Source: a virus
Strand: one strand, 5' to 3'
DNA length: 33,272 bases
IMG/VR virus record: IMGVR_UViG_3300044960_000285
Span: 1 to 33,272 of that record
The notes under the pieces were generated by a model. The model did not search any database. It saw only the letters and a list, made by a program, of their open reading frames with translations, and had not been told where the DNA came from. A program made the position numbers and the translations under genes. Shown one piece after another: positions 1 through 33,272 of the stretch. The stretch's first letter is position 1. Every line of letters begins with the position of its first letter.

Positions 1-28
1 CACGTTTGAGTGGCTGTAACACATGAAA
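1..28. repeat. Terminal direct repeat, left copy (circular overlap)
   Basis: The first 28 bases are identical to the last 28 (33245-33272). The copy spans the stop codon of the repeat-bearing tail gene (TAA at 17-19) and the ATG of the glycosyltransferase gene (23). The reading context is the same at both ends, so this is the expected signature of a circular or circularly permuted molecule rather than two separate biological repeats. Confidence 0.9.
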
Positions 29-3000
29 AGCTGTTCCGAAGCGCACTCCGGCATGACGCCGGAGGAAATGGTGGCCCTGATCGAAGCCGCACCGCCCGGC
101 CCGTGGCCCGAAGGATGGCGCGGCTGGCCGTGCGTGTGCGAAGCGCACCGCATCATGTTTCGCCGCGAAGCGCAGCGCGTCGCGTCGCTGGTCGATCCGC
201 CGATGGACTGGCAGCAGCCGCGCGGCATCGTGACCTGCGGCGGCGGCCTGAAATACTTTCCGGGCGTGTGGGTGCTGGCGCACGTGCTGCGCGACCTGGG
301 ATGCACGCTGCCGATCCAGGTCTGGTATCTGGGCAGCGCGGAAATGGACCCGGGCATGGCGCGACTGCTGGAGCCGCTGGGCGTCGAGTGCGTGGACGCC
401 TTCAAGGTCGCGGAGCGCTACCCGGCCCGCATCCTGTGCGGTTTCGAGGTCAAAATCTACGCCACGCTGTTTTCTCCGTTTCAGGAGGTGCTGTTTCTCG
501 ACGCCGACAACCTGCCCAGCCGCGACCCGTCGGACCTGTTTTCGTGGCCGCAATACCTGCGAACGGGCGCGGTATTCTGGCCCGACTACGCCTGCTGGAA
601 ACTCAAGTCCGACGTGTGGCACATCTGGGGCATGGAAGACATCCTCGAAGACGTGATCGACGATACGGCCTTCGAGTCGGGCCAGTATCTGATCGACAAG
701 CGGCGCTGCTGGCGCGAGCTGATGCTGAGCAAGTGGCTGGGCGATCATTCCGACTATGTTTTCGGCACGGTGTACGGCGACAAGGAATGCTTCCATCTGG
801 CCTGGCGGCGGCTTGGGCGGGAATACGCCATGCCGCGGTATGCCCCGGGCTGGGCGGGCCGGTGCTGCATTGTGCAGCACGATTTCGACGGCAAGCCGAT
901 TTTTTTCCACCGGTGCCAGGACAAGTGGCGGCTGGATGGGCGCAATCGGCTGGAAGGATTGCCGCATGAGGACCGGGCCTTTGCACTGCTCAAAGAGCTG
1001 CGGCAGAAGTGGTCGGGCGTGCCGTGGAGGAATAATCACCCGACGCCGCAGGAGCAGGAGGTGATCGCGCAGCTCCAGGGCAAGCGGTACATCTACCAGC
1101 GCGTTGGGCACGATCAGCGGGTGCTCGTGCTCGAAAAGGATCAGTGGATCACGGAAGGTTCGGCGGACTGCGAGCGACGCTGGGACGTGCACGTCGTGGA
1201 CGGCGAGCCGGTGCTGACCATCTCGGCCTATGACGGGCCGACCTGCCACCTGCGCCGTGACGAGGTGGGCATCTGGCGTGGCCGATGGCTGCACCACGAG
1301 CGCATGCCCATTGTGCTGGCGCCGACGGACCTTTTCGGGACGCTGGCCTGGCTGCCCCCGCCCGACCCGGCCGCGCAAATGACCGACGAGGAACGGGCGG
1401 TGTTTCAGTCGGTGGCGGGTCGCCGGCTGTTGTACGAGCGCGTGGGATACGACCAGCGCCCGATTAAGCTGGAGCCTGACGGAACCATCAGCGAAGGGGC
1501 CGGCGGGATGGAACGCACCTGGCACGTCCGCATCGTCGATGGTGCGCCGGTGCTGACGATCACAGACGGCCTGCGTCCGACGTGCCACCTGCGCCGTGGG
1601 GACGACGGCCGCTGGCGCGGCCAGTGGCTGCGGCATGAGCGGATGCCGATCCTGCTCAGTCCGATGGCGGACGACGGCCAGGGCGCATCATCGCGCCGGG
1701 AGGGCGAGAGCGCCGCATCGCCGCCCAGTGGTGACGGTTCGGAGTCTGGCGACGAGGAGGACGAGGACCCGGACGCAGACGCGCGCGGCGACCTGGCCGC
1801 GCTGGTCACGGTCGCCGTCGTCAGTTTTCGCCGATTCGCCTGCCTGGCGGAGCTGCTGCGGTCGATTCGCGCCCACTATCCGGACCTGCGCGTGATCGTC
1901 GCCGACCAGTCGGGGCCAGACGCCCAGACGGACGAGCGGGCGCAGTGGTGCCGCCGGCATCCGCAGGTGCAATGGCTCGACCTGCCCTACGACTGCGGAC
2001 TGTCGGCTGCGCGCAACGCGGCCATCGCCCACGTGCGCACGCCGTACGTGTGGCTGATGGACGATGATTTCCAGGTTTTGCCATGCACGGACGCCGTGGC
2101 CGCGCTGCACCTGTTCCAGGAGTTCGGCGGGACCGAGCTGGTGGCTGGTCCGCTGTACGACCTGGCCGCTGGCCGCATGACTGACTGGGCGGCCATGCTC
2201 ACCATCGAGCCCGGCACGCCGCCGGTCGTAACGGCCAGCGAGCCCGGGCCGTGGCGGCGGTCGAAGCGAGGGGTGCTGTGGCGGCCCGTCGGCCGGTTTC
2301 TGAACTCGTTCATCGCGCGGACCCAGACGCTGCGGCGCGTGCCGTGGAGGGAGCAATTGAAAATCCGCGGCGAGCATCGGGTGCACCTGGCCGACCTGGT
2401 GCGCCATGGCGTGTCCTGCATCGAGACGCCGTCCCTGACGCTGGCGCATCAAGCGCAGCGGCGCGGCGATGCGACCTACCAGCAGATGCGCTCACGCCGC
2501 GACTGGCACGAAACGCCGCTGTATCGGTTCGCGGGGAATTGGTCGGCCTCGGAGCAGCCGGCGCCCACGCCGGCTGTGACGCATCCCTGCCGCGGGGTCG
2601 TGGTGCTGACGCCTGGCCATACGGGATCGCGTGTGGTGGCGCGTCTGCTTGATGCGCTGGGGTGGCGGATGCCGGAGATCGACGTCGTGTTTGGCGAGCC
2701 CGCCGACGTGCGCGCCGTCAATCAGCGCCTGCTGCGTCGCGAGCGCGTGCCGTGGCACCAACTACGAGACACAGCGGCAGCGTGGCCGCGGCCGTGGTGC
2801 ATCAAGGACCCGCGGCTGTGCGACACGCTCGACGCATGGCTGCCGGCGCTGGCCGATGATGCCCCGCTGCTGGTCGTGGTGGAGCGCGACCCCAGCGCCA
2901 CCCGCGAAATCTGGCGCCGTCGCGGCGAGGCATTGGAACGGCTTCAACGGCGGCTTCAGCGGGTCGAATATCATTGGACCTATTGGCCCTGGGAACGCCG

Positions 3001-3091
3001 CCGCGTGGCGTTTGAGGCCATCTGCGCGGCCTGGGAGCGTATTCCCGAGCCCGGCCGGGAAGCCGAGTCGATGACCAGTGGCCCTTCGTGA
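23..3091 (+). CDS. Trifunctional glycan enzyme: GT71-like + GT2-like glycosyltransferases + sulfotransferase-like domain
   Basis: A 1022-residue multidomain protein. Residues about 65-330 resemble mannosyltransferase-type (GT71/MNN1-like) enzymes, with the nucleotide-sugar/metal motif FLDADN at 158-163. Two tandem repeats follow (about 348-433 and 458-547), sharing PTCHLRR, a WRG-x-WL step and HERMPI; they look like small beta-rich modules of unknown role. After an acidic Ser/Gly/Asp/Glu linker (550-590) comes a GT2-type domain (591-810) with an aspartate cluster at 680-682 and a late WREQLKIRGEH segment like that of GalNAc-transferase-type enzymes. The C-terminus (855-1010) has a sulfotransferase-like P-loop (PGHTGSR, 864-870) and CIKDPRL (926-932). 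The ATG lies 3 nt after the stop of the upstream tail gene across the circle junction, without a clear Shine-Dalgarno, suggesting translational coupling. Substrates are unknown. Confidence 0.8.
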   Translation: MKSCSEAHSGMTPEEMVALIEAAPPGPWPEGWRGWPCVCEAHRIMFRREAQRVASLVDPPMDWQQPRGIVTCGGGLKYFPGVWVLAHVLRDLGCTLPIQVWYLGSAEMDPGMARLLEPLGVECVDAFKVAERYPARILCGFEVKIYATLFSPFQEVLFLDADNLPSRDPSDLFSWPQYLRTGAVFWPDYACWKLKSDVWHIWGMEDILEDVIDDTAFESGQYLIDKRRCWRELMLSKWLGDHSDYVFGTVYGDKECFHLAWRRLGREYAMPRYAPGWAGRCCIVQHDFDGKPIFFHRCQDKWRLDGRNRLEGLPHEDRAFALLKELRQKWSGVPWRNNHPTPQEQEVIAQLQGKRYIYQRVGHDQRVLVLEKDQWITEGSADCERRWDVHVVDGEPVLTISAYDGPTCHLRRDEVGIWRGRWLHHERMPIVLAPTDLFGTLAWLPPPDPAAQMTDEERAVFQSVAGRRLLYERVGYDQRPIKLEPDGTISEGAGGMERTWHVRIVDGAPVLTITDGLRPTCHLRRGDDGRWRGQWLRHERMPILLSPMADDGQGASSRREGESAASPPSGDGSESGDEEDEDPDADARGDLAALVTVAVVSFRRFACLAELLRSIRAHYPDLRVIVADQSGPDAQTDERAQWCRRHPQVQWLDLPYDCGLSAARNAAIAHVRTPYVWLMDDDFQVLPCTDAVAALHLFQEFGGTELVAGPLYDLAAGRMTDWAAMLTIEPGTPPVVTASEPGPWRRSKRGVLWRPVGRFLNSFIARTQTLRRVPWREQLKIRGEHRVHLADLVRHGVSCIETPSLTLAHQAQRRGDATYQQMRSRRDWHETPLYRFAGNWSASEQPAPTPAVTHPCRGVVVLTPGHTGSRVVARLLDALGWRMPEIDVVFGEPADVRAVNQRLLRRERVPWHQLRDTAAAWPRPWCIKDPRLCDTLDAWLPALADDAPLLVVVERDPSATREIWRRRGEALERLQRRLQRVEYHWTYWPWERRRVAFEAICAAWERIPEPGREAESMTSGPS

Positions 3092-3098
3092 GGGAATT

Positions 3099-3914
3099 AT
3101 GGACGACGCGCACCGAACCGACCGGCAATCGCTGGAGCAATTCGCGGCCGCGCGTGCCAAGGCCGTCGGCTACGGCGACGGCGTGCTGTGCCGCGTGCTC
3201 GGCGACCTATTGGCCATCGTGGACCCTGCGGACCTGGCCGTCGGGCCGCGGCTGGCGATGGACGGGTATTGGGAGGCGTGGGTGACGGCCGCCCTGCTGC
3301 GGCACCTGCGCCCCGGGATGGCATGCGTGGACGTAGGGGCGCACGTCGGATATTACACGCTGGCTATGGCCCGCGCCGTCGGCCCGGAAGGCCGCGTGCT
3401 GGCGGTCGAGCCGTACCCAGTCAGCGCGCATCGTCTGCGACAGAACTTGGCTCTGAACGGTTTTTCTTGGGTCGAGACCGCGCAGGTCGCCGCGTCAGAC
3501 GCCGCAGGAACCGCCACCCTGCGCGTGCCGCGCTGCAACGTGGGCGGTGCATCGTTGCATTCTGCGGACAAACCGGACTACGCCGAGGAATGCGAAGTCC
3601 CGACAATCGCGCTCGATGACCTGCTGGGCGAGTGGACACAGCTCGACCTGGTCAAAGTGGACGTCGAGGGCTGGGAGGGCAAAGTCTGGCAAGGCACCGA
3701 GCGTCTGCGGCAGCGGTTCCCGGGGTCCGTGCTGGTCGTTGAGCTCCATGTCGGCATCGACCGGCGCGTGGTGGCGGACTTGCTACCAGAGATCGAACGC
3801 GGCGGCTACGTGCTGCGGCACGTGCGGTACGACGGGACGGTTGCGCCGATCACGCCTGACGCGATCCTGTCACGCCCCGAGAGCGGCTGCACGCTGTGGC
3901 TGACGCGGCGCTAG
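3099..3914 (+). CDS. FkbM-family SAM-dependent methyltransferase
   Basis: A 271-residue protein with a class I methyltransferase fold. The SAM-binding glycine motif DVGAHVGYYT lies at 78-87, followed by the acidic strand end AVEP at 102-105. The FkbM-type signature KVDVEGWEG is at 186-194. FkbM enzymes usually O-methylate hydroxyls of sugars or polyketides. I chose the ATG at 3099 because GAGGGA lies just upstream; a GTG at 3078 in the same frame would overlap the previous gene. The gene directly follows the glycosyltransferase/sulfotransferase fusion, so a sugar O-methyl group on the same glycan is the natural inference. The substrate cannot be read from sequence. Confidence 0.85.
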   Translation: MDDAHRTDRQSLEQFAAARAKAVGYGDGVLCRVLGDLLAIVDPADLAVGPRLAMDGYWEAWVTAALLRHLRPGMACVDVGAHVGYYTLAMARAVGPEGRVLAVEPYPVSAHRLRQNLALNGFSWVETAQVAASDAAGTATLRVPRCNVGGASLHSADKPDYAEECEVPTIALDDLLGEWTQLDLVKVDVEGWEGKVWQGTERLRQRFPGSVLVVELHVGIDRRVVADLLPEIERGGYVLRHVRYDGTVAPITPDAILSRPESGCTLWLTRR

Positions 3915-3927
3915 AGGGGACGCACCG

Positions 3928-4302
3928 ATGGCATGGATGCTGGCAGTGGTGGTCGCGTTGGCCGCGCACCCGGTCGATGACGTGCTGCGCGACCGGGTGG
4001 ACGTAATGGAACTCAATCATTTCTTTAACGACCACGGCGAGCTGATCTTCGATCAAATCATCTTCTGGGACTGGTGCCCCGCCACGGGGCGGCTGAAGGT
4101 GCGGGCGTGGCGACTGGTCAAATCGGCCTGGCAGCTTCCTGAGCGGGACTGGCAGCGTGGCGGCTGGTCGGCCCTGTGGCTGGACGGCGACCGGCTGCGC
4201 GCGATTTACGCGGCGGCGTACCGCGAAACGTGGACGCAGTACGACCCCGAGATTGAGGCCCGCCGGCTGCATGACGTGACCCTGCGGCGCAAGCTCCGCT
4301 GA
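3928..4302 (+). CDS. Small secreted protein of unknown function
   Basis: A 124-residue protein beginning with a short hydrophobic segment (about residues 2-13) ending near Ala-Ala-His, like a signal peptide or N-terminal anchor without a strong positive N-region. The body has the look of a compact beta-rich fold: ELNHFFNDHG at 28-37, then a Trp-rich stretch and a basic C-terminus. A GAGGGGA Shine-Dalgarno precedes the ATG. I have an impression of similar proteins in planctomycete genomes but cannot verify it. It lies 13 nt after the methyltransferase and belongs to the tail end of the late operon. Confidence 0.7.
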   Translation: MAWMLAVVVALAAHPVDDVLRDRVDVMELNHFFNDHGELIFDQIIFWDWCPATGRLKVRAWRLVKSAWQLPERDWQRGGWSALWLDGDRLRAIYAAAYRETWTQYDPEIEARRLHDVTLRRKLR

Positions 4303-4464: not shown

Positions 4465-4496
4465 TTCTGGGCGCGGCCGCACCGCGGGCCGTCTGG

Positions 4497-4535
4497 TCGC
4501 GGCTGGGGGGCGACAGTCCCCAGCCGCGATTCTTT
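4497..4535 (+). terminator. Rho-independent terminator of the late operon
   Basis: A perfect 12-bp stem (TCGCGGCTGGGG at 4497-4508 with CCCCAGCCGCGA at 4518-4529) and 9-nt loop are followed by TTCTTT. It lies between the rightward late genes and the convergent repressor gene, as expected for the end of a long operon. On the minus strand no T-tract follows, so it looks directional. Confidence 0.85.
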
Positions 4536-10665: not shown

Positions 10666-11094
10666 ATGCCTTCAGTCCGTCGGTCTCACGTGCCCAGTGG
10701 CACGATTCGGCTTGGGGCTGCGGGCGGGCCCGTGCCGGCCCCGCCGCTGCCGCTGGTGCTCGAAATCTGGCGCGATGGGTGGGTCGTGCTGCGCGCCCCG
10801 CCCGATGCCCGGGTCCGTGTGCACGTGGCGCACTGCGTCTGGTCGCCCTATCCGTCGGTCCAGAGGCTGGGTGAGGAGCTGGCTTGGCTGGAAACGCCCA
10901 CCTGGGCCAGGCCGGCGATCAAGGTCGTGGCCACGGGGCTTGCGACGCTGTGCCCGACGGTCGAGGAATACGCCTGGCGGCAGATAGAAACGGGCGTCGT
11001 GTTGCCGGCGCTCGTCGAGTGCCTTCGGTCCCACGCACAAGCGGCCAAACGCCATGAACCGGGTCAACGGGTGGACGATCGACTGGGCGGCTGA
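10666..11094 (+). CDS. Hypothetical protein preceding the DUF3631 ATPase
   Basis: A 142-residue soluble protein of unknown function, with a Pro/Gly-rich N-terminus, a beta-like centre (LVLEIWRDGWVVLRAPP) and two likely helices in the C-terminal half (VQRLGEELAWLE; ATLCPTVEEYAWRQIE). No strong Shine-Dalgarno is seen; the start follows the terminator-like hairpin closely. Its 3' end overlaps the next gene by 41 nt in another frame, indicating coexpression with the replication ATPase. Confidence 0.6.
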   Translation: MPSVRRSHVPSGTIRLGAAGGPVPAPPLPLVLEIWRDGWVVLRAPPDARVRVHVAHCVWSPYPSVQRLGEELAWLETPTWARPAIKVVATGLATLCPTVEEYAWRQIETGVVLPALVECLRSHAQAAKRHEPGQRVDDRLGG

Positions 11095-12523
11095 TCGCGT
11101 CGGTCGCCGCGCCATCGTGCTGCTGCGACGCAATGGCCAGCCCGTCGAAAGCCAGCGCTGCGACGTTTTCGACGGCCAGCAGGTGCGCGACCTGGTGGGC
11201 ACGTGGTGCCAGCGGTACCGCATCCCGCAGGAGGACCTTCAGGCCGCGCTGACCGCGGCCGCGGCCGAGTGCTTCGCCGCGATGCGCTCTGGGAGGCCAG
11301 CGGGCCGCGAATCGTCGCCACCGCCGGATGCGGCCGCGTCGCTGGGGCTCGCGTGGCCGGAGCCGTGGCCCGACCCGGTCGCACTGGCCGACGTGCTCGA
11401 CGAGGCGATGCGGTACGTGCAGCGGTACGTCTGGCTGACACGCCATCAGGCGGCGGCCGCCGTCCTGTGGTCCGCGTGGACCTACACGGTCGAGCGGTCA
11501 GACGTCGCCCCCATTCTTATTCTCATTTCGCCCACGAAGCGCTGCGGGAAGACAACGCTGGTCCGGGTGGTCGCGTCGATGCTGCCGCGGGTGCTGGCGG
11601 CGGTTTCGATTTCGCCGGCGGCCCTGTATCGCGTCGTGGAGCTGGCGCAGCCGACGCTGGTCATCGACGAGGTGGACGCCTTCCTCGCCGATAGCGAGGA
11701 GCTCCGCGGACTGGTCAACGCTGGGCATACCCGCGACACGGCCTATGTGGTGCGGCTCGATGGCGAAAGCTTGTTACCGCGCCGGTTTAGCGTGTTCGGC
11801 CCGAAGCTCTTAGCGGGCATCGGTCGCCTGCCCGCGACCATCGAGGACCGGGGCATCATCCTGACCATGCAGCGCAAACCGCCCGGGGCGCACTGCGTGC
11901 GACTCGACCGCGACGCCCTGGCCCGAGGGGCGATCATCGCCCGCAAGCTGCGGCGGTGGTCGCTGGATGAGGGCGAGCGGCTGAAGCCGACGGACGATCC
12001 GCCGTGCCCGGAGGTGCTCAACGACCGGGAGGCGGATTCCTGGCGGCCGCTGTTGGCCCTGGCCGACCTAGCCGGGGCGTGGTGGGGCCTTACGGCCCGG
12101 CAGGCGGCGGTGGCCCTGGCTGGGGCGCAACAGGACGAGCAGGACCTGGCTGTGGCCCTGCTGCGGGACGTGGCGGGACTAGTCGCCGATGATGCTCGCT
12201 GCCGGTGGACGCCGGCCGAGCTGGCGGTGGCCCTGGCCGAGATGGACGACCGCCCATGGCGCGAATATCGGCACGGCCGGCCGATCAATGGGTTCCAAGT
12301 GTCGAAAACCCTTTCCCAGTTTGGACTTGAGACGAGGCGCAGCGACGGTCGGAGGGTGTTTGACGCGGCAGAGCTGCTAGCCGTCGCCGAGCGGTACGCC
12401 CCGGGGGTGTCCGCAAAACGCGCCCCTGGCGCCCCTGTCCAGCGCAACCTGTTCGAGGGCAACGAGTTACGCAGGGGCGCGTGCGATGGAGACTGGGGCG
12501 AGTTTGGCGCGGCCTGTGGCTGA
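11054..12523 (+). CDS. DUF3631-domain P-loop ATPase, probable replication helicase
   Basis: A 489-residue protein. The centre is a P-loop ATPase: Walker A SPTKRCGKTT at 159-168 and Walker B LVIDEVDAFL at 202-211. A domain with MDDRPWREY, a following wHTH-like segment and the C-terminal ETRRSDGRRVF region matches the DUF3631 architecture often found in phage and mobile-element replication proteins. The N-terminal 100 residues are a variable lead domain. No primase palm motif is seen. The last ~35 codons contain one of two copies of an inverted-repeat element (see 12418). With RusA downstream, a role in origin melting or helicase action is likely. Confidence 0.85.
   Translation: MNRVNGWTIDWAADRVGRRAIVLLRRNGQPVESQRCDVFDGQQVRDLVGTWCQRYRIPQEDLQAALTAAAAECFAAMRSGRPAGRESSPPPDAAASLGLAWPEPWPDPVALADVLDEAMRYVQRYVWLTRHQAAAAVLWSAWTYTVERSDVAPILILISPTKRCGKTTLVRVVASMLPRVLAAVSISPAALYRVVELAQPTLVIDEVDAFLADSEELRGLVNAGHTRDTAYVVRLDGESLLPRRFSVFGPKLLAGIGRLPATIEDRGIILTMQRKPPGAHCVRLDRDALARGAIIARKLRRWSLDEGERLKPTDDPPCPEVLNDREADSWRPLLALADLAGAWWGLTARQAAVALAGAQQDEQDLAVALLRDVAGLVADDARCRWTPAELAVALAEMDDRPWREYRHGRPINGFQVSKTLSQFGLETRRSDGRRVFDAAELLAVAERYAPGVSAKRAPGAPVQRNLFEGNELRRGACDGDWGEFGAACG
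12418..12482. repeat. 65-nt inverted-repeat element, copy 1 (coding)
   Basis: ACGCGCCCCTG (12418-12428) is perfectly mirrored by CAGGGGCGCGT (12472-12482), and CAACGAGTTACG lies inside. A second element of the same length starts 105 nt later at 12523. This copy encodes part of the ATPase C-terminus (APGAPVQRN). Confidence 0.55.
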
Positions 12524-16044: not shown

Positions 16045-16455
16045 GTGCGCGACTACCCGCACCTGCTGGCCGCATGGGCGAAAGGCCGCGGTTTAGCGGC
16101 CATCGCGGCGCAGTATGGCGTGTCGCGGTCGAGTGTGTGGCGGCACCTATGCCGCGCGCGGGCCCTGTACCGCGAGGAAGTGCGGCGGTCGCTGGCCGAT
16201 TTTTTCTACGAGCTCACGACGCTGCGCCGCACGCTATGGGAAGCGCTCGACGATCCGGAGGCCAACCGCGCGGCCCTGGCGCAGGCGCTGGTGAAGGCGA
16301 TCACGCTCGAGCTCGAGCTGGTGCGGGAGCTGACGGCCCGGGAAGCGGCGGACGCGGCGTTCCGCGTCGCGGGCGCGGAGCCGCAGGCCCTGGCTGCGGA
16401 AGCGGCATCGCGGCTGCTAACGTTACTCGATGCCAAAGCACGGTCCAAAGATTGA
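16045..16455 (+). CDS. Probable small terminase subunit (HTH protein)
   Basis: A 136-residue protein. GLAAIAAQYGVSRSSVWRHL (16-35) is a clear helix-turn-helix; the rest is helical with an acidic/Leu-rich centre typical of TerS oligomerisation regions. It overlaps the large terminase by 26 nt, the usual arrangement. The start is uncertain: GTG 16045 has no good ribosome site, and its frame is open upstream well into the previous gene, encoding a Lys/Arg/Pro-rich stretch. It could start earlier or be reached by coupling or frameshifting. TerS recognises phage DNA and loads TerL. Confidence 0.7.
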   Translation: MRDYPHLLAAWAKGRGLAAIAAQYGVSRSSVWRHLCRARALYREEVRRSLADFFYELTTLRRTLWEALDDPEANRAALAQALVKAITLELELVRELTAREAADAAFRVAGAEPQALAAEAASRLLTLLDAKARSKD

Positions 16456-18001
16456 GCGAGCGGCGGAGCTCGTGCTGGGCGATGCCTGGCTGACGGAATA
16501 CGCAGCGCGCAGCCGCGAGCTGGCCTATTTCACTTTTCGGCCGCGGCCGAACCGGCCGGAATTGGGCGACGAGCAGCAGGCTTTCGTCGAGTCGCGCGAC
16601 GTGGTGGCGTTTTTCATTGCCGGCAACGGGTCCGGGAAAACCGAGGCCGCCGCGGCCAAGTGCGCACGATTCCTGCTGGCGCGCCAGCCGCCGCCGCGGC
16701 GTGATACGCCCTTCTGGATTCTCACGGAAACGATGCACGTTGCCGGCGAGGTGCTCTGGAAGGAAAAGCTGCTCGGCCGTGGCCACCTGCCGCCCTCCGA
16801 AATCGACTGGGCACGGGTGAGCTGGCACGAAAAAAAGGCGAATCATCCGCGGATGGTCCCGCTGCTCCCGTGGCCCGCGTCCCGAGGAGGGGACGACGGG
16901 AAAAACTGGATGATCGAGTTCAAGTCGTTCGAGATGGGGCGGCGCGCGCTCCAGGGCGCGTCCATCGGCGGCTTCTGGTTCTCCGAGCAGTTCCCGGCGG
17001 ACCTGTTCACCGAAGTGCTGGTGCGTTGCCGCGACTACCTTTTCCCGGGCGGGCAGTTCGCCGAGTTCACGCCCTTGGACCCGGACCTGTGCGTGTGGCT
17101 GGAGCGGATCATGGAAGAGCCGCCGCCGGGCTGGGGATTTTACCGGGGCAATACCGAGTGCAATCGCGAAAACCTGGCACCTGGGGCCATCGAGGCGTTT
17201 CTGGCCACCACGCCCGAAGAGCTCAAAGAAACGCGGCTGCGCGGCGTGCTGGCATCGTTCGAGGGAGCAATTTATCCGACCTTCAACGTGAAGCTGCACG
17301 TGGTGGACGAGTCCGAGGTGCGCATCCCGCCGGGCTGCTGGCATTTTCTGGGCACGGACTGGGGATCGTCGGTCGAGCATCCCCACGTCACAGTCTGGGC
17401 GGCGATGGATGGCGCGGGCGACTGGATCGTTTACGACGAGCTATGGGACTGCGACCAGTCGCGCACCACGTACGACCTGGCGCAGGAAGTGGTGCGACGC
17501 TGTGCGAGCTGGGGCTGGCCTACGTGCGTCGAGCAGGTCGAGGGCCGGGCGGTGCAGCGGATCGTGACGGACGACCCGCACTACGGCATGAACTTCGCCG
17601 ACCCCAGCCGCCCCGGGGAAATCTATAGTTTCGGGCAGTATGGCGTCCCCACGGTCCCGGCATCAAATCGCGTGTACGATGGGATCAACGCGGTTCGGCT
17701 GCTGCTTAAGCCGCACCCGGTCACGGGGCGGCCGCGGCTGCGGATTTCGTCACGCTGCCGCCACCTGATCGAACAGATGCGCAAGTATCGCTGGCGGCGG
17801 TCGCGCTCGCCGCTGTCCGGCAGTGCGATCAATCCCGCGGTGGCGTCACCCGTGCCGCTGAAGCGCGATGACGACGCCTGCGACGCCCTGCGGTACCTGA
17901 TCGCGTCGTGCGGGATGGGCGAAACCCGGCCCGTGAGTCAGCCGACCCTGACGCCCAGGCCCCGGCGGTCCGCGATCTGGCCCGGGCGGCCGCTACAATA
18001 G
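16430..18001 (+). CDS. Terminase large subunit
   Basis: A 523-residue packaging motor. ATPase domain: Walker A GNGSGKT (65-71), then FWILTETMHVAGEV and a Walker B-like GGFWFSEQFP with acidic Glu, and a coupling-motif region. The RNase H-like nuclease domain begins at HFLGTDWGSS (catalytic Asp) and ends with KRDDDACDALRYLIAS (acidic cluster) near the C-terminus. It cleaves concatemers and translocates DNA into the prohead. Length and order are normal for TerL. The group (headful or cohesive-end) cannot be told from motifs alone. Confidence 0.93.
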   Translation: MPKHGPKIERAAELVLGDAWLTEYAARSRELAYFTFRPRPNRPELGDEQQAFVESRDVVAFFIAGNGSGKTEAAAAKCARFLLARQPPPRRDTPFWILTETMHVAGEVLWKEKLLGRGHLPPSEIDWARVSWHEKKANHPRMVPLLPWPASRGGDDGKNWMIEFKSFEMGRRALQGASIGGFWFSEQFPADLFTEVLVRCRDYLFPGGQFAEFTPLDPDLCVWLERIMEEPPPGWGFYRGNTECNRENLAPGAIEAFLATTPEELKETRLRGVLASFEGAIYPTFNVKLHVVDESEVRIPPGCWHFLGTDWGSSVEHPHVTVWAAMDGAGDWIVYDELWDCDQSRTTYDLAQEVVRRCASWGWPTCVEQVEGRAVQRIVTDDPHYGMNFADPSRPGEIYSFGQYGVPTVPASNRVYDGINAVRLLLKPHPVTGRPRLRISSRCRHLIEQMRKYRWRRSRSPLSGSAINPAVASPVPLKRDDDACDALRYLIASCGMGETRPVSQPTLTPRPRRSAIWPGRPLQ

Positions 18002-25331: not shown

Positions 25332-26309
25332 ATGCCAGCGCCTGCACTAGCTGCCATCGCCCGCGTGCTGGCGGGCCTCGCGGTCCGAGCTGGAGCCCCT
25401 GCCGCAGGGCGAGCGCTTGCCGCCACAACGGGCGTTGCCGGTACGCGGGCCGCCTCGGCCGCCACGGCCGGCGGCGTGCGCCAGGTGCTCGAAGACACCG
25501 GGCTCACCAACGTGCGGCAGATTCTGGCGGCCGTGATGCAAGGCCCGCAGGCCGGCGGACGGCAACAGCAGCAGCCGCCACCCCAGCAGCCCGCGCAGCA
25601 GGCCGCGCTAGCTCCCCCACCGCCACAACCGCCACAACCGCCGCAGCAGCCGCAGGCGCCGCCACCGCCTCCCCCGCCCCCGGCCCCGCTGCCACCACCG
25701 CCGCCGCCGCCACCGCCACCGCCACAGCAGCCGCAGGCCCCGGCAGGTTCCGACCTGGGCGACATGCTCAAGCAATTGGGCGGTTCGCTATTGTCGGGCG
25801 CGAAAGGTTTCGTCACGGGGAGTCTGACATCGCCTGTCGGGATCGCGACCTCCGCTGTGACGTTGCCGATTGCGGCGGAGCGACTGGCAAACAAGTTCGA
25901 GCAGCTTGCGCGGCGTGTTGCCGAGGCGAACGACCAGTTCGGGGAGTTTTCCGGCCAGATTGCCGCATCGAGCGCCAGGCGTCAGATGGCTGAGCGGATG
26001 CAGCGTCGCGACATTGCGCTGGCCACCTCCAGCAGTGCCTCGCTGCTCAATCAACAGCTCGCCACGCTCACACGCGAAGTCACGCCGATCAAAGAAGCAA
26101 TCGCGTCAACGATGAACTACATCGCGACGGGTATGACGCTCATTGCGCGGGCCGCCGTGCTGTTCGTGAAATTGTCGCCGACGTTCATCCTGTGGCACCG
26201 CACGATGCAGAAGGCCGAGGGCCGCGGAAGTGCGAAGCCCGAGGAAACGCCGCTGCATGATTTCCTGCGTGACGTGCGCGCTGGCCATTTCCGGAACCGC
26301 GAACGATGA
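25332..26309 (+). CDS. Short tape-measure-like protein with polyproline linker
   Basis: A 325-residue protein. Ala-rich helical N-terminus; a Pro/Gln linker at about 78-140 with a run of 11 prolines; then an amphipathic/hydrophobic part (KQLGGSLLSGAKGFVTG; SAVTLPIAAERLA), a coiled-coil region and a second hydrophobic stretch (IATGMTLIARAAVLFVKL). Position after the chaperone fits a tape measure, but the length is very short for one, implying a stubby tail or a different length mechanism. The polyproline run would need EF-P. Its 3' end overlaps the next gene by 4 nt. Confidence 0.6.
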   Translation: MPAPALAAIARVLAGLAVRAGAPAAGRALAATTGVAGTRAASAATAGGVRQVLEDTGLTNVRQILAAVMQGPQAGGRQQQQPPPQQPAQQAALAPPPPQPPQPPQQPQAPPPPPPPPAPLPPPPPPPPPPPQQPQAPAGSDLGDMLKQLGGSLLSGAKGFVTGSLTSPVGIATSAVTLPIAAERLANKFEQLARRVAEANDQFGEFSGQIAASSARRQMAERMQRRDIALATSSSASLLNQQLATLTREVTPIKEAIASTMNYIATGMTLIARAAVLFVKLSPTFILWHRTMQKAEGRGSAKPEETPLHDFLRDVRAGHFRNRER

Positions 26310-28060
26310 CCGATGTGATCTACAACGGCGTGCGCATCAGCAACTGCATCACACGGCAGTTCCGGCAACTGGTGCGCTACGACGAAAGCGGGACCGACCT
26401 GCTCGGAACCGAAATCCATCTGGTGGTCGAAGGATACATACACGGCCAGCACAGTCTGTCGTTTCACGGCATCGGCCGCGGGACCTATCGCAACGTGGCG
26501 GACGAGTTCGCGGCCGTGTCGATGGCCTTGTCGCAGCCGCGAAAAGAGCTGCGCGTCTACTGGCGGACCGAAGCAGGCATGGTGCTTGTGATGCACGCGG
26601 TTCCGGGCACCAGCGAAAACACGGCCACCAACACCGACGTAGACCACGGCCCCAAGCCGACGGAGCTCGAAGTCGTGCGCGTGACGCCACGGGCGGTGCT
26701 GGTGCGCTGGGGCGTCAAGACGACGGTCAGTTTCTGCGCCGACAGTCAGCAGGTGCGCGGGCCCGCGAAAATCATCTACAACAAATGGCACGTCGAAGAA
26801 ACGCTCAATGCCGACTGGTACACCAGCCGCCGCATCACGGGCCGCATCCGATTTTCCGAGGGACTGACAGCCAAGCATGCGCTGCGTGGGGCCATCACGC
26901 CGATTCTGGAGCAGGGGTTCCGGCGCGAGATGGTGCAATACAGCGTCAGCGAAAACGGCCTGGAGGCCAGCTACGTCATCGAGGACCGTCAGGTCCATTA
27001 TTCGGCCCCGCCGCCCGCAACCGACATGCGGGTGACACACACGGACTCCAGCAACGACGGCGTGACGTGGCTTAGCCACGTCACGATTGAGCTCACGGGT
27101 TCGCCGGCGGCCAGCCGGCAAGCGCTGCTCCAGCGTCTGGTCGAAATCATGGACCAGCGGACCCGCATCCTGTCGGGCACGGACGAGCAGCGGAAAAACC
27201 TGAAGATCGAGCATGTGGCGATCACTGAGGAGTTCGGAGAAACGAACCGCGTCCGGGGCGACCTTACGGTTAAATACTTCTACGAAAAGACCTCCGATGT
27301 GACCTATACGCTGCGCGACCGGCAGATCGGCCAGCCGCTGGAGCTGCGCAGCTACAACCGCACGCAAAGCCAGACGCCGCCGCTGTTCGGCGAGCAGCCG
27401 CACGGCAAACAGCGCGATCCCTCGACGCTGTTTCTGCTGGAGTGCTACGTCCAGGACCCCTGCTCGACCGCCAAGACAATCGGCCGCAATCAGCCGTCAC
27501 GGTCGCAGCTCTACCAGCCACAGCAGGACAGCCAGTCGCCCTACGTCGAGGAAACGCCCCGCAGTCCGAGCCAGTCACGGCCGCAGCTCAGCTACAATCA
27601 ATCGCACGAGCAGGCGATGTACACGCTGGCGACGGTGCGTGTGACGTTCGATGCAGACTTTGGGCGCCCCGTCGTTCCGCTCGGAATCGACCGCGTGAAC
27701 ATCGACGGAAACTCAGACGCGCTCGTGGCAAAGCTTGTCCCCACGTTGCACGTGCCGGTATATCGTCGCATGGTGGATTGCGTGCTGGAGCGCGTCGGGG
27801 CGCTTCCGGAACTGCCCCGCCTCGATCAAGCCATCGTCGAGCATGACGGGGCCTACTTCATCCGCAATCGCTGGAAAGTAATTGCGGAGCCGCCGCGGCC
27901 GGACCCCAGCGGATCGCAGCTCGTCATGCGGGTCCGCGTCCTGATTTGGGAAACGCTGTTGGGGACCAATTTGCAGCAGCTCTGGATCGGCACGAACCCG
28001 ATTGTGAACGTCGAGCCCGCGCGGCTGCCCCTAAGCGGGCTAAACCCGCTCAACTTGTAG
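26306..28060 (+). CDS. Tail hub/baseplate candidate, large beta-rich protein
   Basis: A 584-residue protein, beta-rich throughout, with a Gln/Ser/Pro-rich spacer (about 365-430: QTPPLFGEQPHGKQ; SQSPYVEETPRSPSQSRPQ). The N-terminal half is the type of sequence seen in distal-tail or hub proteins, but no named family is recognised. It follows the tape-measure-like gene directly and so is probably a central tail-tip part. The ATG overlaps the previous stop. Confidence 0.6.
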   Translation: MTDVIYNGVRISNCITRQFRQLVRYDESGTDLLGTEIHLVVEGYIHGQHSLSFHGIGRGTYRNVADEFAAVSMALSQPRKELRVYWRTEAGMVLVMHAVPGTSENTATNTDVDHGPKPTELEVVRVTPRAVLVRWGVKTTVSFCADSQQVRGPAKIIYNKWHVEETLNADWYTSRRITGRIRFSEGLTAKHALRGAITPILEQGFRREMVQYSVSENGLEASYVIEDRQVHYSAPPPATDMRVTHTDSSNDGVTWLSHVTIELTGSPAASRQALLQRLVEIMDQRTRILSGTDEQRKNLKIEHVAITEEFGETNRVRGDLTVKYFYEKTSDVTYTLRDRQIGQPLELRSYNRTQSQTPPLFGEQPHGKQRDPSTLFLLECYVQDPCSTAKTIGRNQPSRSQLYQPQQDSQSPYVEETPRSPSQSRPQLSYNQSHEQAMYTLATVRVTFDADFGRPVVPLGIDRVNIDGNSDALVAKLVPTLHVPVYRRMVDCVLERVGALPELPRLDQAIVEHDGAYFIRNRWKVIAEPPRPDPSGSQLVMRVRVLIWETLLGTNLQQLWIGTNPIVNVEPARLPLSGLNPLNL

Positions 28061-29722: not shown

Positions 29723-30202
29723 ATGCCCAGCGAATCCGAAATCCTGCAAGGCGTGCTGCGACACTACCGCGAGCGCTCCGGCCTTCCGGCCGATGCGGTG
29801 CACCTGGCCATCGAGCCCTTGGCCCCGCCCATGATCCCCAAGGGCGGCGGCTACTGGCTGACCGTCGCTCCGGGCGCCTCGCATTTTCCGCACGACGAAG
29901 TCCACGACGCGGTAACGATGCGCCAAATCCTTGACCTGCACGTAACCGGCTACGTGCGGATGCGCTTGGATCGGCCTGACCGGGAAACGTCGCTGATCCT
30001 TGACCCGGACCGCGGCGTGGGGAAGATCAAGCGCCTGATTCTGACGCTGTCCCACGTCGTGATCTATGACGAGTCTGATCTGCCGATCAACGTTACGATT
30101 TCGCCCGTCGGGGCTAGTGCCCCGAGCTATGACCCCGAGCAGGGGATCGGCTGGCTGTCCGTCCAATTCGCCGCGGAGTTCGACTGTTGCCTGCCTTCGT
30201 AG
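29723..30202 (+). CDS. Small tail-module protein, unknown
   Basis: A 159-residue soluble protein with alternating strands (YWLTVAPGASHFP; YVRMRLDRPDRETSLILDPD) and a conserved-looking acidic/basic mix. No family is recognised. The start lies 3 nt after the previous stop; the 3' end overlaps the next gene by 16 nt. It is probably a minor tail component or chaperone for the large neighbours. Confidence 0.6.
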   Translation: MPSESEILQGVLRHYRERSGLPADAVHLAIEPLAPPMIPKGGGYWLTVAPGASHFPHDEVHDAVTMRQILDLHVTGYVRMRLDRPDRETSLILDPDRGVGKIKRLILTLSHVVIYDESDLPINVTISPVGASAPSYDPEQGIGWLSVQFAAEFDCCLPS

Positions 30203-32205
30203 CGTGGAACGGCCAGGCGCTGCCCATGATCGGGGCATCGCCTGAGCTTCACCAGTGGCTGACGCTGCTTGATTTTCCGGCGGCCGTGTGGCCGACGCGG
30301 CCACGCACTGCGCCGTTTCCAGGCGCTGTGCATAGTGACCCGCAGTACCCGCAGAATCCGTATCCGCTACCGACCCACCCGCCAGAAGTCCGGCTCAATT
30401 CGCTGTGGTGGCCTTCGGGCCTGGGCCGCTGGTCCGTCGGATATTTCGCGATCCCGCCGCAGGACGATCAGGAGCAGTCGCAATCGCCCATCAAGCAAGC
30501 CGAAGCCAGCCGCGAAATCGGCGTGCTGACGATGGGCGACGGCATCCAAGCGGTGGAGTATTCGCCGATGGTGATCGTGCGCCGGATCGGATTGACCGGG
30601 AGCGCCACACGGGGCGGAGGATTTGAGCATGGCCCGCTGCAAATCGCCAGCGTCACGGACGTGCGATTTTTCTGGAATCAGATTCCGATTCCGACGCACC
30701 GTTTGGCGTACGGCATGGACTGGGAGCAGTTTTTCACCGCCCTATTGATGCCGCTATTGCGCGACGAAGAGTTTGCGAAAGACTGGGCGCAGTATTTCGT
30801 GCGCAAGTCGAACGCAGGGCATCGTACGAAAATCCGACCGGACATCACCTATTACAAGACCGCGACGCTGAGCGTCGGCCAGGCCCTCGACCTGGCCGCG
30901 GCGACCATTGGCGTATCGCTGCTATTGATGCCAAAGGCAGTCATCGACAAGGAGCCGCAAGAGGCCTTCAAGGGCGAAAAAATCGAGTATTCCATCGTGG
31001 CGGCCGATTACGATGACACGCAGCGTCTGGAAAATCAGCCGCTGCTGTGGAGCGCGGGCATCGGGTTCAGCCGTGAGGGCGGGCAGTACCCGGACGAACA
31101 GATTCCGGTCCGCGTGCTGTTCCCGTACTCGCACGGCGGCGCGCTGCATGGCGACGGTCGATACTGGGCGAGCGACTGGCAGAACCTGCCGCAGGATGAT
31201 GAGGAGCCCACCGAGGACGAAGACGACCAGGAGGAGCAGCAAAGCCAGAGTGGGAACCCGGAACAGGAGGAGCTGAGACAGCCGGCCATCGAGCAGTCGG
31301 ACGACCCGCTGTTTCCCATCGCCGTCTGGTGCACCTACCCGGCCCTGCGCGAGCGCCCGCTGCCGCAGCTCGGCGTGCGCGACCCTGACAACCGGGACGA
31401 TCTGCTCCAAGTGGCGGAGCATATTCGGGAAATCTACAAGCACCGCGCGCGGCAGTGCGCGTGGGGTGCGCTCGTCTATTCGGGCGTGCCGTTCAATCAG
31501 GGCATCGACTGGCGACGATTCCCGCAGCAGCGCGGATTTTTCCCCAACGCGCTATCCCATACGGGATCGGAGGAATCGTTCTGGCTGCTGCTGGGCGTCC
31601 CCGGCCCGACGGTGGCGCATGGCACGGCCGGCGGCCTGCGGTGCCAGACGCTAGTCCGCGCGCTGCCCGCGCCCTTCGTGCCGACCATCTGGCCGGTCAT
31701 CCCAGCCGAGACTCAGGAGCAGTCGCAAAATCCCGAGAATCAATCGCAGAGCGGGCCGGGAAATGGCGATGATCAGTCTTCGACGCGCCCGGTGCATCGC
31801 GTGCGGCCCTCGGAAATCGTCGCCGCGCAACTTCTCGAAGGCTGGAAGTTCGAGCGGTCGAAGAAGCGCACCGCGTACGCCATGGCGCGCCTTGTGTACG
31901 ACGAAAAGGGCGACGGCAAATACGTCCCGATGGGCAAGGACAAGGTGCGTGTGTACGACCCGATGGACCTGCGGCACGGCACCAAGCCGAAGGACATCGT
32001 GTGGGTGGCCGTACTGCCGCCCGATACCAGCCGGCTGGTACTGGTCAGTCGCCACGCGGACACGCTGATTGTTCGCACGACGAACCCCATCCCGAACGAC
32101 GATGGGTATTACGAGGGCATCATTCAGTTCTGGAACGCGCGCAAGAAGCGCTGGGAGGATGGCCCGAGCTGCTACGTGCTCGACGCCAATGACCCGGGAA
32201 GGTAA
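30187..32205 (+). CDS. Large tail/adsorption protein with acidic linkers
   Basis: A 672-residue protein from TTG 30187 (GGAG about 8 nt upstream; ATG 30226 is an alternative). Globular regions are separated by Gln/Ser/Glu/Asp-rich linkers (about residues 93-105, 335-362 and 502-530), a design often seen in modular tail-tip or receptor-binding proteins. The C-terminal 130 residues look like a compact beta domain (WVAVLPPDTSRLVLVSRHADTL). No enzymatic motif is recognised. Confidence 0.6.
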   Translation: MPAFVAWNGQALPMIGASPELHQWLTLLDFPAAVWPTRPRTAPFPGAVHSDPQYPQNPYPLPTHPPEVRLNSLWWPSGLGRWSVGYFAIPPQDDQEQSQSPIKQAEASREIGVLTMGDGIQAVEYSPMVIVRRIGLTGSATRGGGFEHGPLQIASVTDVRFFWNQIPIPTHRLAYGMDWEQFFTALLMPLLRDEEFAKDWAQYFVRKSNAGHRTKIRPDITYYKTATLSVGQALDLAAATIGVSLLLMPKAVIDKEPQEAFKGEKIEYSIVAADYDDTQRLENQPLLWSAGIGFSREGGQYPDEQIPVRVLFPYSHGGALHGDGRYWASDWQNLPQDDEEPTEDEDDQEEQQSQSGNPEQEELRQPAIEQSDDPLFPIAVWCTYPALRERPLPQLGVRDPDNRDDLLQVAEHIREIYKHRARQCAWGALVYSGVPFNQGIDWRRFPQQRGFFPNALSHTGSEESFWLLLGVPGPTVAHGTAGGLRCQTLVRALPAPFVPTIWPVIPAETQEQSQNPENQSQSGPGNGDDQSSTRPVHRVRPSEIVAAQLLEGWKFERSKKRTAYAMARLVYDEKGDGKYVPMGKDKVRVYDPMDLRHGTKPKDIVWVAVLPPDTSRLVLVSRHADTLIVRTTNPIPNDDGYYEGIIQFWNARKKRWEDGPSCYVLDANDPGR

Positions 32206-32207
32206 GC

Positions 32208-33263
32208 ATGGCCGAAGATTTCCCGCAGCGGATACTGGCTCGCCCCTTTGGCTGGCACGACGGCAAGCTCATTGTGGCCAGGGCGTGCGCTGCCCCCGAC
32301 GAAACCGGCAAGCGGTGGCTAGGAGTCATTGGCAGCGCTAGCGCACAGAGCGGCAAGCCGATTGTGATCGGTACGGAGTGCGAGTTCCCGTCCATGCGCC
32401 GGCAGCTCGGCCGCTGGGTATCGTGGCCGCACGGCCAGCGCGCCATCTACGCCATCGCCTGCTGCCAGCACGGATCGAGCGCTGGATCGAGCGGACCGTC
32501 TAGCGGGCCGAGTTCCGGGCCCTCCAGCGGGCCGAGTTCCGGCCCCTCCAGCGGGCCGTCGAGCGGGCCGAGTTCCGGCCCCTCCAGCGGGATGCGCAGC
32601 GGCCTGGAAAGCGGGCCGTCGAGCGGGTTCAGTTCGGGCCCCTCCAGCGGGCCCAGCAGCGGCCCCTCCAGCGGTCCGTCGAGCGGGCCGAGTTCCGGCC
32701 CCTCCAGCGGCCCCAGCAGCGGCCCGTCGAGCGGGCCGCGCGGGGGCTGCCGGCTGTATCCGTGGCGGTTCTACACGACCGGCGGAGCTCAAATCCTGTC
32801 GGAACCCGAAGACTGGATCGTGCGCTGGAAAACGGCGCCGGATTCCTATGCTCAATCGGCCGCCGGGGATCGGTTTGTCGAATGCTGGGGCGAGTACCGG
32901 CGCCGGTTCCGCGTCAGCGTGACCGCAGAGTTCGCGACCGCCCATCGCGGATCGCTGCGCGTGTGGATCGAAGTGTGCGGCGGCGTGGTGACGCAGCATG
33001 ACCCTTACATGATCACGCTCGATACACCACAACACCCGCCGCAGTGTCAGTGGAGCTTCGAGGATTCCGGATCGCGCGAAGCCGAAGTGGACACGGCCTT
33101 TTGCGGGTGGGTGAACGAGGAAGACTTGCCGGCGACGGCCGAAGACATCAATCACCCGCCGTCGATCCGCATCCATTGGGAGTATCACCTGCTGTTCGAG
33201 GGTCCCGAGTATTGCAATCCCGAGAACGCAAGCCGATTGACCTTCACGTTTGAGTGGCTGTAA
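32208..33263 (+). CDS. Repeat-bearing tail fibre-like protein with GPSS repeats
   Basis: A 351-residue protein in three parts. Residues 1-86 are a small beta-rich head ending in CysCys (85-86). Residues 89-175 are a low-complexity rod of Gly-Pro-Ser-Ser units (20 four-residue units at 96-175, 17 of them exact), flanked downstream by another Cys (178). Residues 180-351 form a beta-rich C-terminal domain with WRFYTTGG and repeated Trp/Tyr, like a receptor- or sugar-binding head. Serine density makes the rod a plausible O-glycosylation target. The stop codon lies 3 nt before the ATG of the glycosyltransferase fusion across the circle junction. A translation-coupled cassette is inferred. Confidence 0.7.
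   Translation: MAEDFPQRILARPFGWHDGKLIVARACAAPDETGKRWLGVIGSASAQSGKPIVIGTECEFPSMRRQLGRWVSWPHGQRAIYAIACCQHGSSAGSSGPSSGPSSGPSSGPSSGPSSGPSSGPSSGPSSGMRSGLESGPSSGFSSGPSSGPSSGPSSGPSSGPSSGPSSGPSSGPSSGPRGGCRLYPWRFYTTGGAQILSEPEDWIVRWKTAPDSYAQSAAGDRFVECWGEYRRRFRVSVTAEFATAHRGSLRVWIEVCGGVVTQHDPYMITLDTPQHPPQCQWSFEDSGSREAEVDTAFCGWVNEEDLPATAEDINHPPSIRIHWEYHLLFEGPEYCNPENASRLTFTFEWL
32493..32732 (+). repeat. 12-bp tandem repeat encoding Gly-Pro-Ser-Ser units
   Basis: Twenty 12-bp units (240 bp) encode 17 exact Gly-Pro-Ser-Ser and three variants (GMRS, GLES, GFSS) in the centre. Serine codons vary from unit to unit (TCGAGC, TCCAGC, AGTTCC, AGCAGC), so the amino-acid pattern is conserved rather than only the DNA. 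Some paired units (GGGCCGAGTTCC, then GGCCCCTCCAGC) repeat as 24-mers, showing past expansion. Confidence 0.95.
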
Positions 33264-33272
33264 CACATGAAA
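33245..33272. repeat. Terminal direct repeat, right copy (circular overlap)
   Basis: Identical to bases 1-28; see that entry. The unit genome is 33,244 bp. Confidence 0.9.

Follow-up and report, generated by a model that had tools for sequence, protein, structure and literature searches.

A serine-rich phage tail protein and its adjoining GT71 and FkbM genes as a candidate glycan cassette

The question raised by the locus described here is which molecule the sugar-modifying enzymes of a phage tail operon act on. In the virus record IMGVR_UViG_3300044960_000285, analysed over its whole length of 33,272 bases (hereafter, the window), a 351-residue tail protein with a serine (Ser)-rich tract of (GPSS) repeats is followed by a 1022-residue multidomain glycosyltransferase (GT) and an FkbM methyltransferase. 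To our knowledge, glycosylation of virion proteins is known from few phages, and there is no general rule for finding the acceptor. A first-pass annotation of the window had proposed a late cassette that decorates the virion itself, and this proposal is supported by the counts of loci (30/36, 10/10, and 35/35) given below. We consider it likely, judging from the genomes compared, that the product of the cassette is a mucin-like tail stalk, which dedicated enzymes glycosylate and methylate.

The first 28 bases of the record are identical to the last 28 (33245–33272, a copy of 1–28), so that the record is read as a circular contig with an end overlap, and the stop codon of the 351-residue open reading frame (ORF) therefore falls 3 nt before the ATG at position 23 of the 1022-residue ORF. 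The order on the circle, all on the plus strand, is 32208–33263 (351 residues), 23–3091 (1022 residues), 3099–3914, and 3928–4302. In the near relatives L003 (G001) and L004 (G002), the gene set and order are identical and the junction is uninterrupted. An artefact from the ends of a linear fragment is ruled out by the 28-nt overlap and by the junction being crossed in these two relatives, and the 3-nt spacing given in the first-pass annotation is thereby upheld.

Recurrence of the tract beside glycosyltransferase genes

A four-sequence alignment of the first 456 residues of the enzyme retrieved 36 loci on viral contigs. With a tract defined as at least 16 Ser in 40 residues, a Ser-rich tract was found on the same strand within 1.5 kb upstream of the enzyme in 30 of the 36 loci, compared with 20 of 287 other 1.5-kb tiles of those loci; some of the Ser-rich genes (L119, L142, and L148) and of the FkbM genes (L119, L126, and L133) were read frame-wise. 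FkbM follows the GT or is fused to it in 25 of the 36 loci, that is, in 25 of the 28 with enough sequence; it was not found in L149, L152, and L153, and eight more loci end too early to tell. Among 28 proteins scanned with Pfam, seven combine PF11051 and PF05050 in one chain. The match to the window enzyme extends through one beta domain in 15 loci and covers the GT-A part only in 13, the rest being cut by the contig end (six) or near relatives of the window (two). Tape-measure homologues lie upstream in 18 of the 36 loci; the remaining loci are truncated or have a different type of tail.

Since few matches to GPSS itself proved real, it is the other Ser tracts, not GPSS alone, that carry this signal. 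A scan for the GPSS pattern gave 39 stretches, nine of them with an in-frame (GPSS)4 ORF; three of the nine are real, namely those of the two close relatives and that of L026/G015, through which the wider family was recognised, and one is a 56-residue fragment. GPSS alone was rejected as a marker of the system on this count (3/9). The five other (GPSS)n matches (L011, L018, L024, L038, and L043) lie opposite Ala-rich frames of an AARDAAWAAA-like type with 29–48% Ala. Scans for deep relatives with the queries A2 and A1 returned the two close relatives only.

The tail-first survey started from a 261-residue tail protein without a Ser tract, which is encoded ahead of the Ser-rich gene in many of these phages. 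It has 370 relatives, and within the best 80 of them the 37 loci with at least 3 kb of downstream sequence were counted. A tract is present in 35 of the 37, and a GT in every one of these 35, of the GT71 type in 23 and of other types in 12; ten of the 23 GT71 contigs were already in the enzyme-first set, and some loci are near-duplicates. No GT of these families was found in the two loci without a tract (L220 and L293), and none of the tail-first loci has a GT71 enzyme without a tract. At a 2.5-kb cut-off, the tract is present in 38 of 41 loci and a GT in 36 of those 38. In the 12 non-GT71 loci, the tract is fused to the next tail protein, with relatives of other GTs downstream in each; ten representative proteins of these loci gave Pfam matches to GT4-type, GT2, GT64-like, GT25, and radical SAM families and to two sulfotransferase types, some of the GT2 matches in these cassettes being below the Pfam cut-off. 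A radical SAM gene or a relative of one lies within the tail glycan cassette of L234, L235, L236, and L262. The gene pair, for which the first-pass annotation had suggested a search in related phages, thus recurs, including in phages with unrelated tail genes.

The flanks of the tract were compared in 27 Ser-rich proteins, from 26 of the 30 loci and the window, leaving out L130, L134, L136, and L137, where the tract lies more than 1.7 kb from the GT. In stop-to-stop reading, N-terminal parts of four unrelated kinds are present in 21 of the 27, and hardly any such part is left in the remaining proteins; one of these groups (L146/L147/L150) may be untranslated. The C-terminal parts of 21 of the 27 form six groups, and L126, L127, L128, L132, L141, and L145 have almost none. 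The tract is the sole feature common to all 27 partner proteins, with 28–49% Ser accompanied by Gly; the residues that rank after these two vary from protein to protein (Pro, Ala, Thr, Leu, Val, and others). A constant tract with exchanged flanks and enzymes is what one would expect of a Ser acceptor served by interchangeable enzymes and tips.

In planctomycete genomes, a draw at the class level with L128 at E ≤ 1e-40 found the enzyme in 27 of 397 genomes, at most four candidates being scored per genome; a draw at the phylum level with A5 at E ≤ 1e-30, differing in query and limits, found it in 2 of 392, one of them G025. Every place listed from the class draw was read, together with L168, giving 38 host-genome loci. 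A tract lies upstream in 10 of the 38, versus 8 of 221 other tiles, and all 10 enzymes are 60–80% identical to L128 over nearly the full length (L194 in two frames). These 10 close copies all have the Ser-rich gene, the GT, and FkbM in order, with a tape-measure homologue in reach in eight. Six further copies (52–84% identity), which are fragments or interrupted, have no tract, and five of them have an FkbM match. Because the tract lies upstream of close copies only, the pairing belongs to the phage clade and not to the whole GT71 family. The first-pass annotation had named as decisive counter-evidence enzymes that occur without any repeat-bearing tail gene; such enzymes are found among divergent relatives and in the six broken or partial copies, so that the claim of decoration is limited to a phage clade. 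The stricter statement that the enzyme never occurs without a tract was rejected in view of the divergent viral and host-genome relatives.

Three of the 22 divergent host-genome loci have Ser-rich genes nearby in another orientation (L165, 411 residues; L167, 2258 residues; L168, 227 residues). L168:1409–7363 (G065) holds a GT9-like gene, a SPASM-domain protein, and a 901-residue protein with two GT71-like halves. Its 227-residue protein has a long pure Ser run behind an RRSFVKG-type leader, which we take to be a Tat motif, and the locus looks like a cellular one for modification of a Ser polymer. In L167:1220–7996 (minus strand), the 2258-residue protein reads as RHS/YD-like, has a Ser-rich N-terminal stretch, and lies two genes from the GT71 relative.

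The tail protein, the enzymes, and their genomic setting

The 351-residue protein (32208–33263, plus strand) follows the tail module and is 95% identical in L003 and 79% in L004. Residues 1–88 (32208–32471) are kin to an RYLxR..PLYAxxCC type common to Ser-rich proteins of other phages. Residues 89–178 (32472–32741), the proposed glycan acceptor, comprise 17 GPSS units with 42 Ser, compared with at most 2 units in 2000 residue shuffles of the whole protein. Five different Ser codons are used in the tract, which rules out a recent DNA duplication. The tract peptide is identical in the window and L003 with different codons, and the L004 protein is 36 residues shorter, the whole difference lying in or at the tract; the tract is therefore kept as a peptide and variable in length. 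Origin of the repeat by chance or artefact is ruled out by the shuffles and by its retention in relatives. No PHROGs match was obtained for the protein. Its description as a Ser-rich repeat protein in the first-pass annotation holds; that of a rod found no support in the AlphaFold2 (AF2) model, in which residues 1–177 are of low confidence, as detailed below.

The C-terminal residues 179–351 (32742–33260) were modelled by AF2 as a beta-sandwich, with a predicted local distance difference test (pLDDT) score mostly of 70–84. The best structural match is Bd1399 (8okh; Z-score, 9.5), followed by CBM61 (8.8), CBM16 (about 8.8), and the tailspike of phage K2-2 (8.1); no phage tail-tip family was among the top structural matches of this domain. 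The model fits a carbohydrate-binding or adhesin-like tip that would bind glycans, and Z-scores of 7–9.5 may reflect a common arrangement only. In comparison of the window with its relatives, the ratio of nonsynonymous to synonymous substitution rates (dN/dS) of residues 1–88 is 0.05–0.20 against L003 and L004, and the C-terminal tip evolves faster. Between the window and L004, the tip differs by dN 0.245 and dS 0.69, with the N-terminal part much less diverged, which suggests that the tip has been exchanged or is fast-changing.

The 1022-residue enzyme (23–3091, plus strand) begins with a GT71-type GT-A domain (residues ~62–340; 206–1042). PF11051 matches residues 67–191 with E = 4.9e-32 and 111.8 bits against a Pfam cut-off of 22, and is present in 28 of 28 aligned relatives (E ≤ 0.001), while the DxD motif at D160/D162, with A161, is invariant in all 28 enzymes. 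In the AF2 model, based on an alignment of 28 sequences, most of residues 1–340 are of high confidence. The closest PDB entry is yeast MNT2 (7xjv; Z-score, 23.4; root-mean-squared deviation, 3.1 over 279 aligned residues; Foldseek, 6.4e-12), followed by glycogenin, WbbM, UGGT, LgtC, and GlyE. Two tandem beta domains, overlooked by the first-pass annotation and both modelled well, lie between the two GT domains: residues 352–434 (1076–1324), common to about half of the enzyme relatives, and residues 466–547 (1418–1663), a second copy whose likeness to the first was read from sequence. A stretch like these beta domains is fused to FkbM in L167:11477–12568 (plus strand; the beta part by reading, FkbM by Pfam), and another stands apart from any GT in a 251-residue ORF of L125. 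A GT2 domain (PF00535, residues 596–687; E = 2.2e-14; 1808–2083) occurs in 3 of the 28 enzymes scanned, that is, the window and its two close relatives only. On this count, the window's clade has gained both the GT2 and the C-terminal domain. Against the two relatives, dN/dS is 0.03 for the GT domain, 0.22–0.44 for GT2, and 0.29–0.33 for the C-terminal domain, and is 1.0–2.6, without constraint, in the linker ahead of GT2. With the FkbM gene at 0.07–0.12, all four are thus under constraint, the GT2 and C-terminal domains more loosely.

The first-pass annotation had read the enzyme as two GT domains with a sulfotransferase-like end, and the locus as a combination of glycosylation, sulfation, and methylation. 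Both GT domains are borne out by Pfam (PF11051 and PF00535), structure prediction agrees with the GT-A fold, and the loci compared support glycosylation with methylation as the usual form of the cassette; sulfation in this phage did not find support. The C-terminal region (residues 855–1012; 2585–3058) gave no match to a sulfotransferase family in Pfam (E ≤ 0.05), NCBIfam (E ≤ 1), or a PDB sequence search, so a confirmed sulfotransferase in the window was set aside. Its AF2 pLDDT is mostly below 60, and its alignment by hhalign to the Sulfotransfer_3 region of L258 is weak (probability 29%; E = 0.00058 in a single comparison). By Pfam, true sulfotransferase domains do occur in sibling cassettes. 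In L258:10120–11592 (plus strand), a 491-residue GT25–Sulfotransfer_3 fusion follows a Ser-rich tail protein, with one 183-residue ORF between, and is the clearest candidate seen for a glycan-plus-sulfate enzyme. L242:12697–13284 (plus strand), with relatives in L245 and L250, is a Sulfotransfer_4 gene in a tail cassette with GT4- and GT2-type genes.

The FkbM methyltransferase (3099–3914, plus strand; PF05050, E = 1.1e-18, 68.4 bits against a cut-off of 22.7) stands where the first-pass annotation had placed it. The next product (3928–4302, plus strand; 124 residues), called secreted there, does have a hydrophobic N-terminus. At the end of the operon, the terminator proposed at 4497–4535 corresponds to a strong hairpin at about 4495–4531 (plus strand; −30.9 kcal/mol; z, −3.08); it was not called by a terminator scan, and its T run is short. 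Directly upstream of the Ser-rich gene lies a 672-residue tail-module protein (30187–32205, plus strand), residues ~626–669 of which resemble the ~223-residue gene found ahead of the Ser-rich one in other phages; a further tail-module protein of 584 residues (26306–28060, plus strand) served as the query for relatives lacking the GT71 enzyme. In the first PHROGs scan, six of eight proteins had no match or only a weak GT2 match.

The terminase large subunit (16430–18001, plus strand; phrog_2) places the phage among those of Planctomycetota. A 14-terminase alignment found relatives (38–53% identity) on 15 public-genome contigs, 14 of them from Planctomycetota or planctomycete groups and one from Saprospiraceae, and the class to which G025, a Schlesneria assembly, belongs includes genomes with close copies of the enzyme; the phage probably infects planctomycete bacteria. 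Among 50,697 deposited phages, no match was found to the window enzyme, the Ser-rich protein, the 672-residue tail protein, L128 (the common form of the enzyme), or the 261-residue tail protein, and the 367 terminase matches are all below 60% identity. Within 14 terminase-related records, several of them fragments, the enzyme occurs in the two near relatives only. Two other tail modules support the pairing in a different form, having Ser-rich proteins without GT71 and with other sugar genes adjoining: in G014, a 786-residue Ser-rich protein is followed by a GT25, a methyltransferase-bearing gene, and an epimerase, and in G008, Ser-rich tracts in several tail proteins are accompanied by a cytidylyltransferase. 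Wider gene contexts also vary: for G015, an 18.6-kb fragment, homologues among the window ORFs tried were limited to 11054–12523, the end of the 672-residue protein, the Ser-rich protein, and the enzyme. No Pfam family was found in three neighbouring proteins of G003, one of G007, and two of G006 (403 and 538 residues). In G007, a relative without a Ser tract, L088:129–5165 (minus strand) encodes a 1679-residue tail-module protein with collagen repeats (PF01391).

Proposed function and its alternatives

In the proposed mechanism, the 351-residue protein would be a tail tip or fibre, attached to the tail by its N-terminal part and carrying a carbohydrate-binding-like tip on a Ser-rich (GPSS)n stalk. 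Phage tail proteins are assembled in the cytoplasm, and a cytoplasmic nucleotide-sugar enzyme could therefore act on them directly. Drawing on a nucleotide sugar before tail assembly, the GT71-type enzyme would either put O-glycans on the Ser tract itself or extend a first sugar attached there by a host enzyme. The GT2 domain probably attaches a further sugar, FkbM would O-methylate and so cap the glycan, and the unconfirmed C-terminal domain may sulfate it in this phage clade. The benefit may lie in a stiff, extended stalk, in shielding from proteases or host recognition, or in binding to lectins of the host surface. We infer the tail protein and its Ser residues as acceptor, and likewise the donor, the advantage to the phage, and, from the enzyme families, the sequence in which the steps occur.

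We lean slightly towards a wider reading as well, namely that a "mucin tail" system is widespread among phages of Planctomycetota, in which variable Ser stalks, fused to tail proteins or encoded beside them, would each have their own exchangeable glycan cassette (GT71 with FkbM; GT4, GT2, or GT64-like with radical SAM or sulfotransferase; or the GT25–sulfotransferase fusion), with methylated or sulfated O-glycans that would diversify in the manner of surface glycans.

Several observations weigh against a decorated stalk. The support comes from genomes, and a Gly-Ser-Pro tract can serve simply as a linker. AF2 gave a pLDDT below 50 for residues 1–177 of the tail protein, and its model of the enzyme is poor past residue 552. 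No upstream tract is present in the divergent viral loci L140, L149, L151, L152, and L153, nor at any of the 22 host-genome relatives below 50% identity (22/22), and in L138 the candidate lies outside the 1.5-kb limit, as an SSEP-rich protein 4.4 kb upstream. The loci are related to one another, so that a Fisher test on the count of 30 in 36 exaggerates their independence: by our own tally, 12 of 18 clusters at 80% identity (window included) have a tract, and at 60% identity 5 of 10 do, including a two-member cluster where a single member has it. On the tail side, L220 combines an FkbM gene with the absence of a tract, and L255 and L284 have a tract without a GT at the 2.5-kb cut-off, both ending 2.6 kb downstream. 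Among the terminase-related phages, G010 has a UDP-GlcNAc 2-epimerase and only a short Ser run, and G003 and G007 lack a strong tract; no sugar enzyme was found in the five neighbouring proteins scanned of the latter two, so that these Ser-poor tails go without a detected cassette.

It is rather unlikely that the tract is a flexible linker and that the enzymes modify a tail or other virion protein at another site, be it a domain rich in Cys, a C-terminal domain, or a tail tube protein. Tracts of Gly, Ser, and Pro are typical linkers, and AF2 gives this one no structure. The glycan sites of mycobacteriophages, too, are reported at the C-termini of capsid and tail-tube proteins (PMC12619734). 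Modification elsewhere is at odds with the flank comparison, in which the tract alone is common to the paired proteins while the flanks are exchanged or absent, and with a Ser content that stays steady while the next commonest residues besides Gly vary; it would also leave the joint presence of tract and GT in all 35 tail-first loci, and the lack of a detected GT in the two tract-less ones, unaccounted for.

The tail position could alternatively reflect expression timing, the cassette editing a host surface glycan for receptor masking, superinfection exclusion, or lysogenic conversion. The GTs of temperate phages do alter host serotype (PMC12619734), relatives of the cassette apparently reside in prophages of planctomycete genomes, and the divergent host-genome members are without the tract or these tail genes. 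We regard this reading as improbable, because the enzyme pairs with the tract, which stays when enzyme families are swapped, and because tape-measure homologues lie upstream in half of the viral loci and in eight of the ten close host-genome copies. No lipid-carrier enzyme was found in the eight window proteins scanned with Pfam, and by hydropathy averaged over 19 residues, in place of a dedicated membrane predictor, the GT peaks at 1.8, in a stretch with two Arg where the GT2 domain starts, and FkbM at 1.4. A shared insertion site, at which a cargo position past the tail-tip genes gathers Ser-rich and sugar genes independently, has in its favour the highly variable content of the site between phages and the FkbM gene of L220 without a tract. 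The order of tract gene, GT, and FkbM recurs across tail contexts, with the genes abutting or one short gene between; GT–FkbM and GT25–sulfotransferase fusions exist, and the GT71 enzyme was never seen without a tract in the tail-first loci. In the face of these, independent gathering seems very improbable, and glycosylation of the stalk remains the reading that we prefer.

Relation to known systems

The closest precedent is the virion glycosylation of mycobacteriophages (Che8 and others), whose capsids and tail tubes carry glycans (Freeman et al. 2023, as cited in PMC11256854 and PMC12619734). There, as proposed here, phage-encoded GTs are believed to act on virion proteins of the phage itself, in capsid and tail. 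The glycans of those phages are reported at the C-termini of capsid and tail-tube subunits (PMC12619734), whereas the site proposed here is a Ser-rich tract; for one related phage, the genes are described as lying close to the genome's 3′ end (PMC11256854), whereas the GT71/FkbM cassette adjoins a tail-tip-type gene. Unlike in the mycobacteriophage system, the enzymes here are exchangeable and the relatives are mostly in Planctomycetota. A phage-encoded GT beside the structural operon, one of the marks of virion glycosylation, was found in the window and in its relatives.

A second likeness is to the serine-rich repeat protein (SRRP) adhesins of Gram-positive bacteria, such as GspB and PsrP, which have glycosylated Ser-rich stalks and GT genes in one cluster (PMC6973325). 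Both have a Ser-rich stalk bearing a binding domain, clustered GTs, and variable further enzymes, and the co-location of a Ser-rich repeat protein with GT genes that characterises SRRPs was found here. Pfam matches of the two cassette enzymes comprise PF11051, PF00535, and PF05050 with further GT2-like and methyltransferase models; no GtfA/GtfB-type priming enzyme was found in these two, GT71 and FkbM standing in place of GtfA/B/C. The cassette would therefore work like that of an SRRP yet fall outside the SRRP family, and its product, being a phage tail protein and not a surface adhesin, needs no export. GlyE of S. pneumoniae, one of the structural matches of the GT-A domain, acts on PsrP. 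Glycogenin glucosylates a protein. Alpha-mannosyltransferases of GT71 (yeast MNT2/MNN1 type) and the GT8 glycogenin share the GT-A fold and DxD motif with the window enzyme; MNT2 and glycogenin differ from it in having ~15% identity in structural alignment, and in that the window type is fused to beta, GT2, or FkbM domains.

In the open-access literature searched, no paper on Ser-rich phage tail glycoproteins and no match to the phrase phage sulfotransferase or similar was found among the matches listed, and the phrase "planctomycete phage" or similar was not found; a phage of a planctomycete isolate is described in PMC10945688. The tract-paired GT71/FkbM tail cassette is filed as a variant that extends known virion glycosylation. 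It offers a sequence rule, in that a Ser-rich tract in a tail gene predicts an adjoining GT cassette across several enzyme families (35/35 loci with a tract and 3 kb of sequence, among the best 80 of 370). If the reading is true, tail glycans would evolve by exchange of enzymes on a generic Ser acceptor, much like those of Gram-positive adhesins, and one could then test what virion glycans do during adsorption and evasion.

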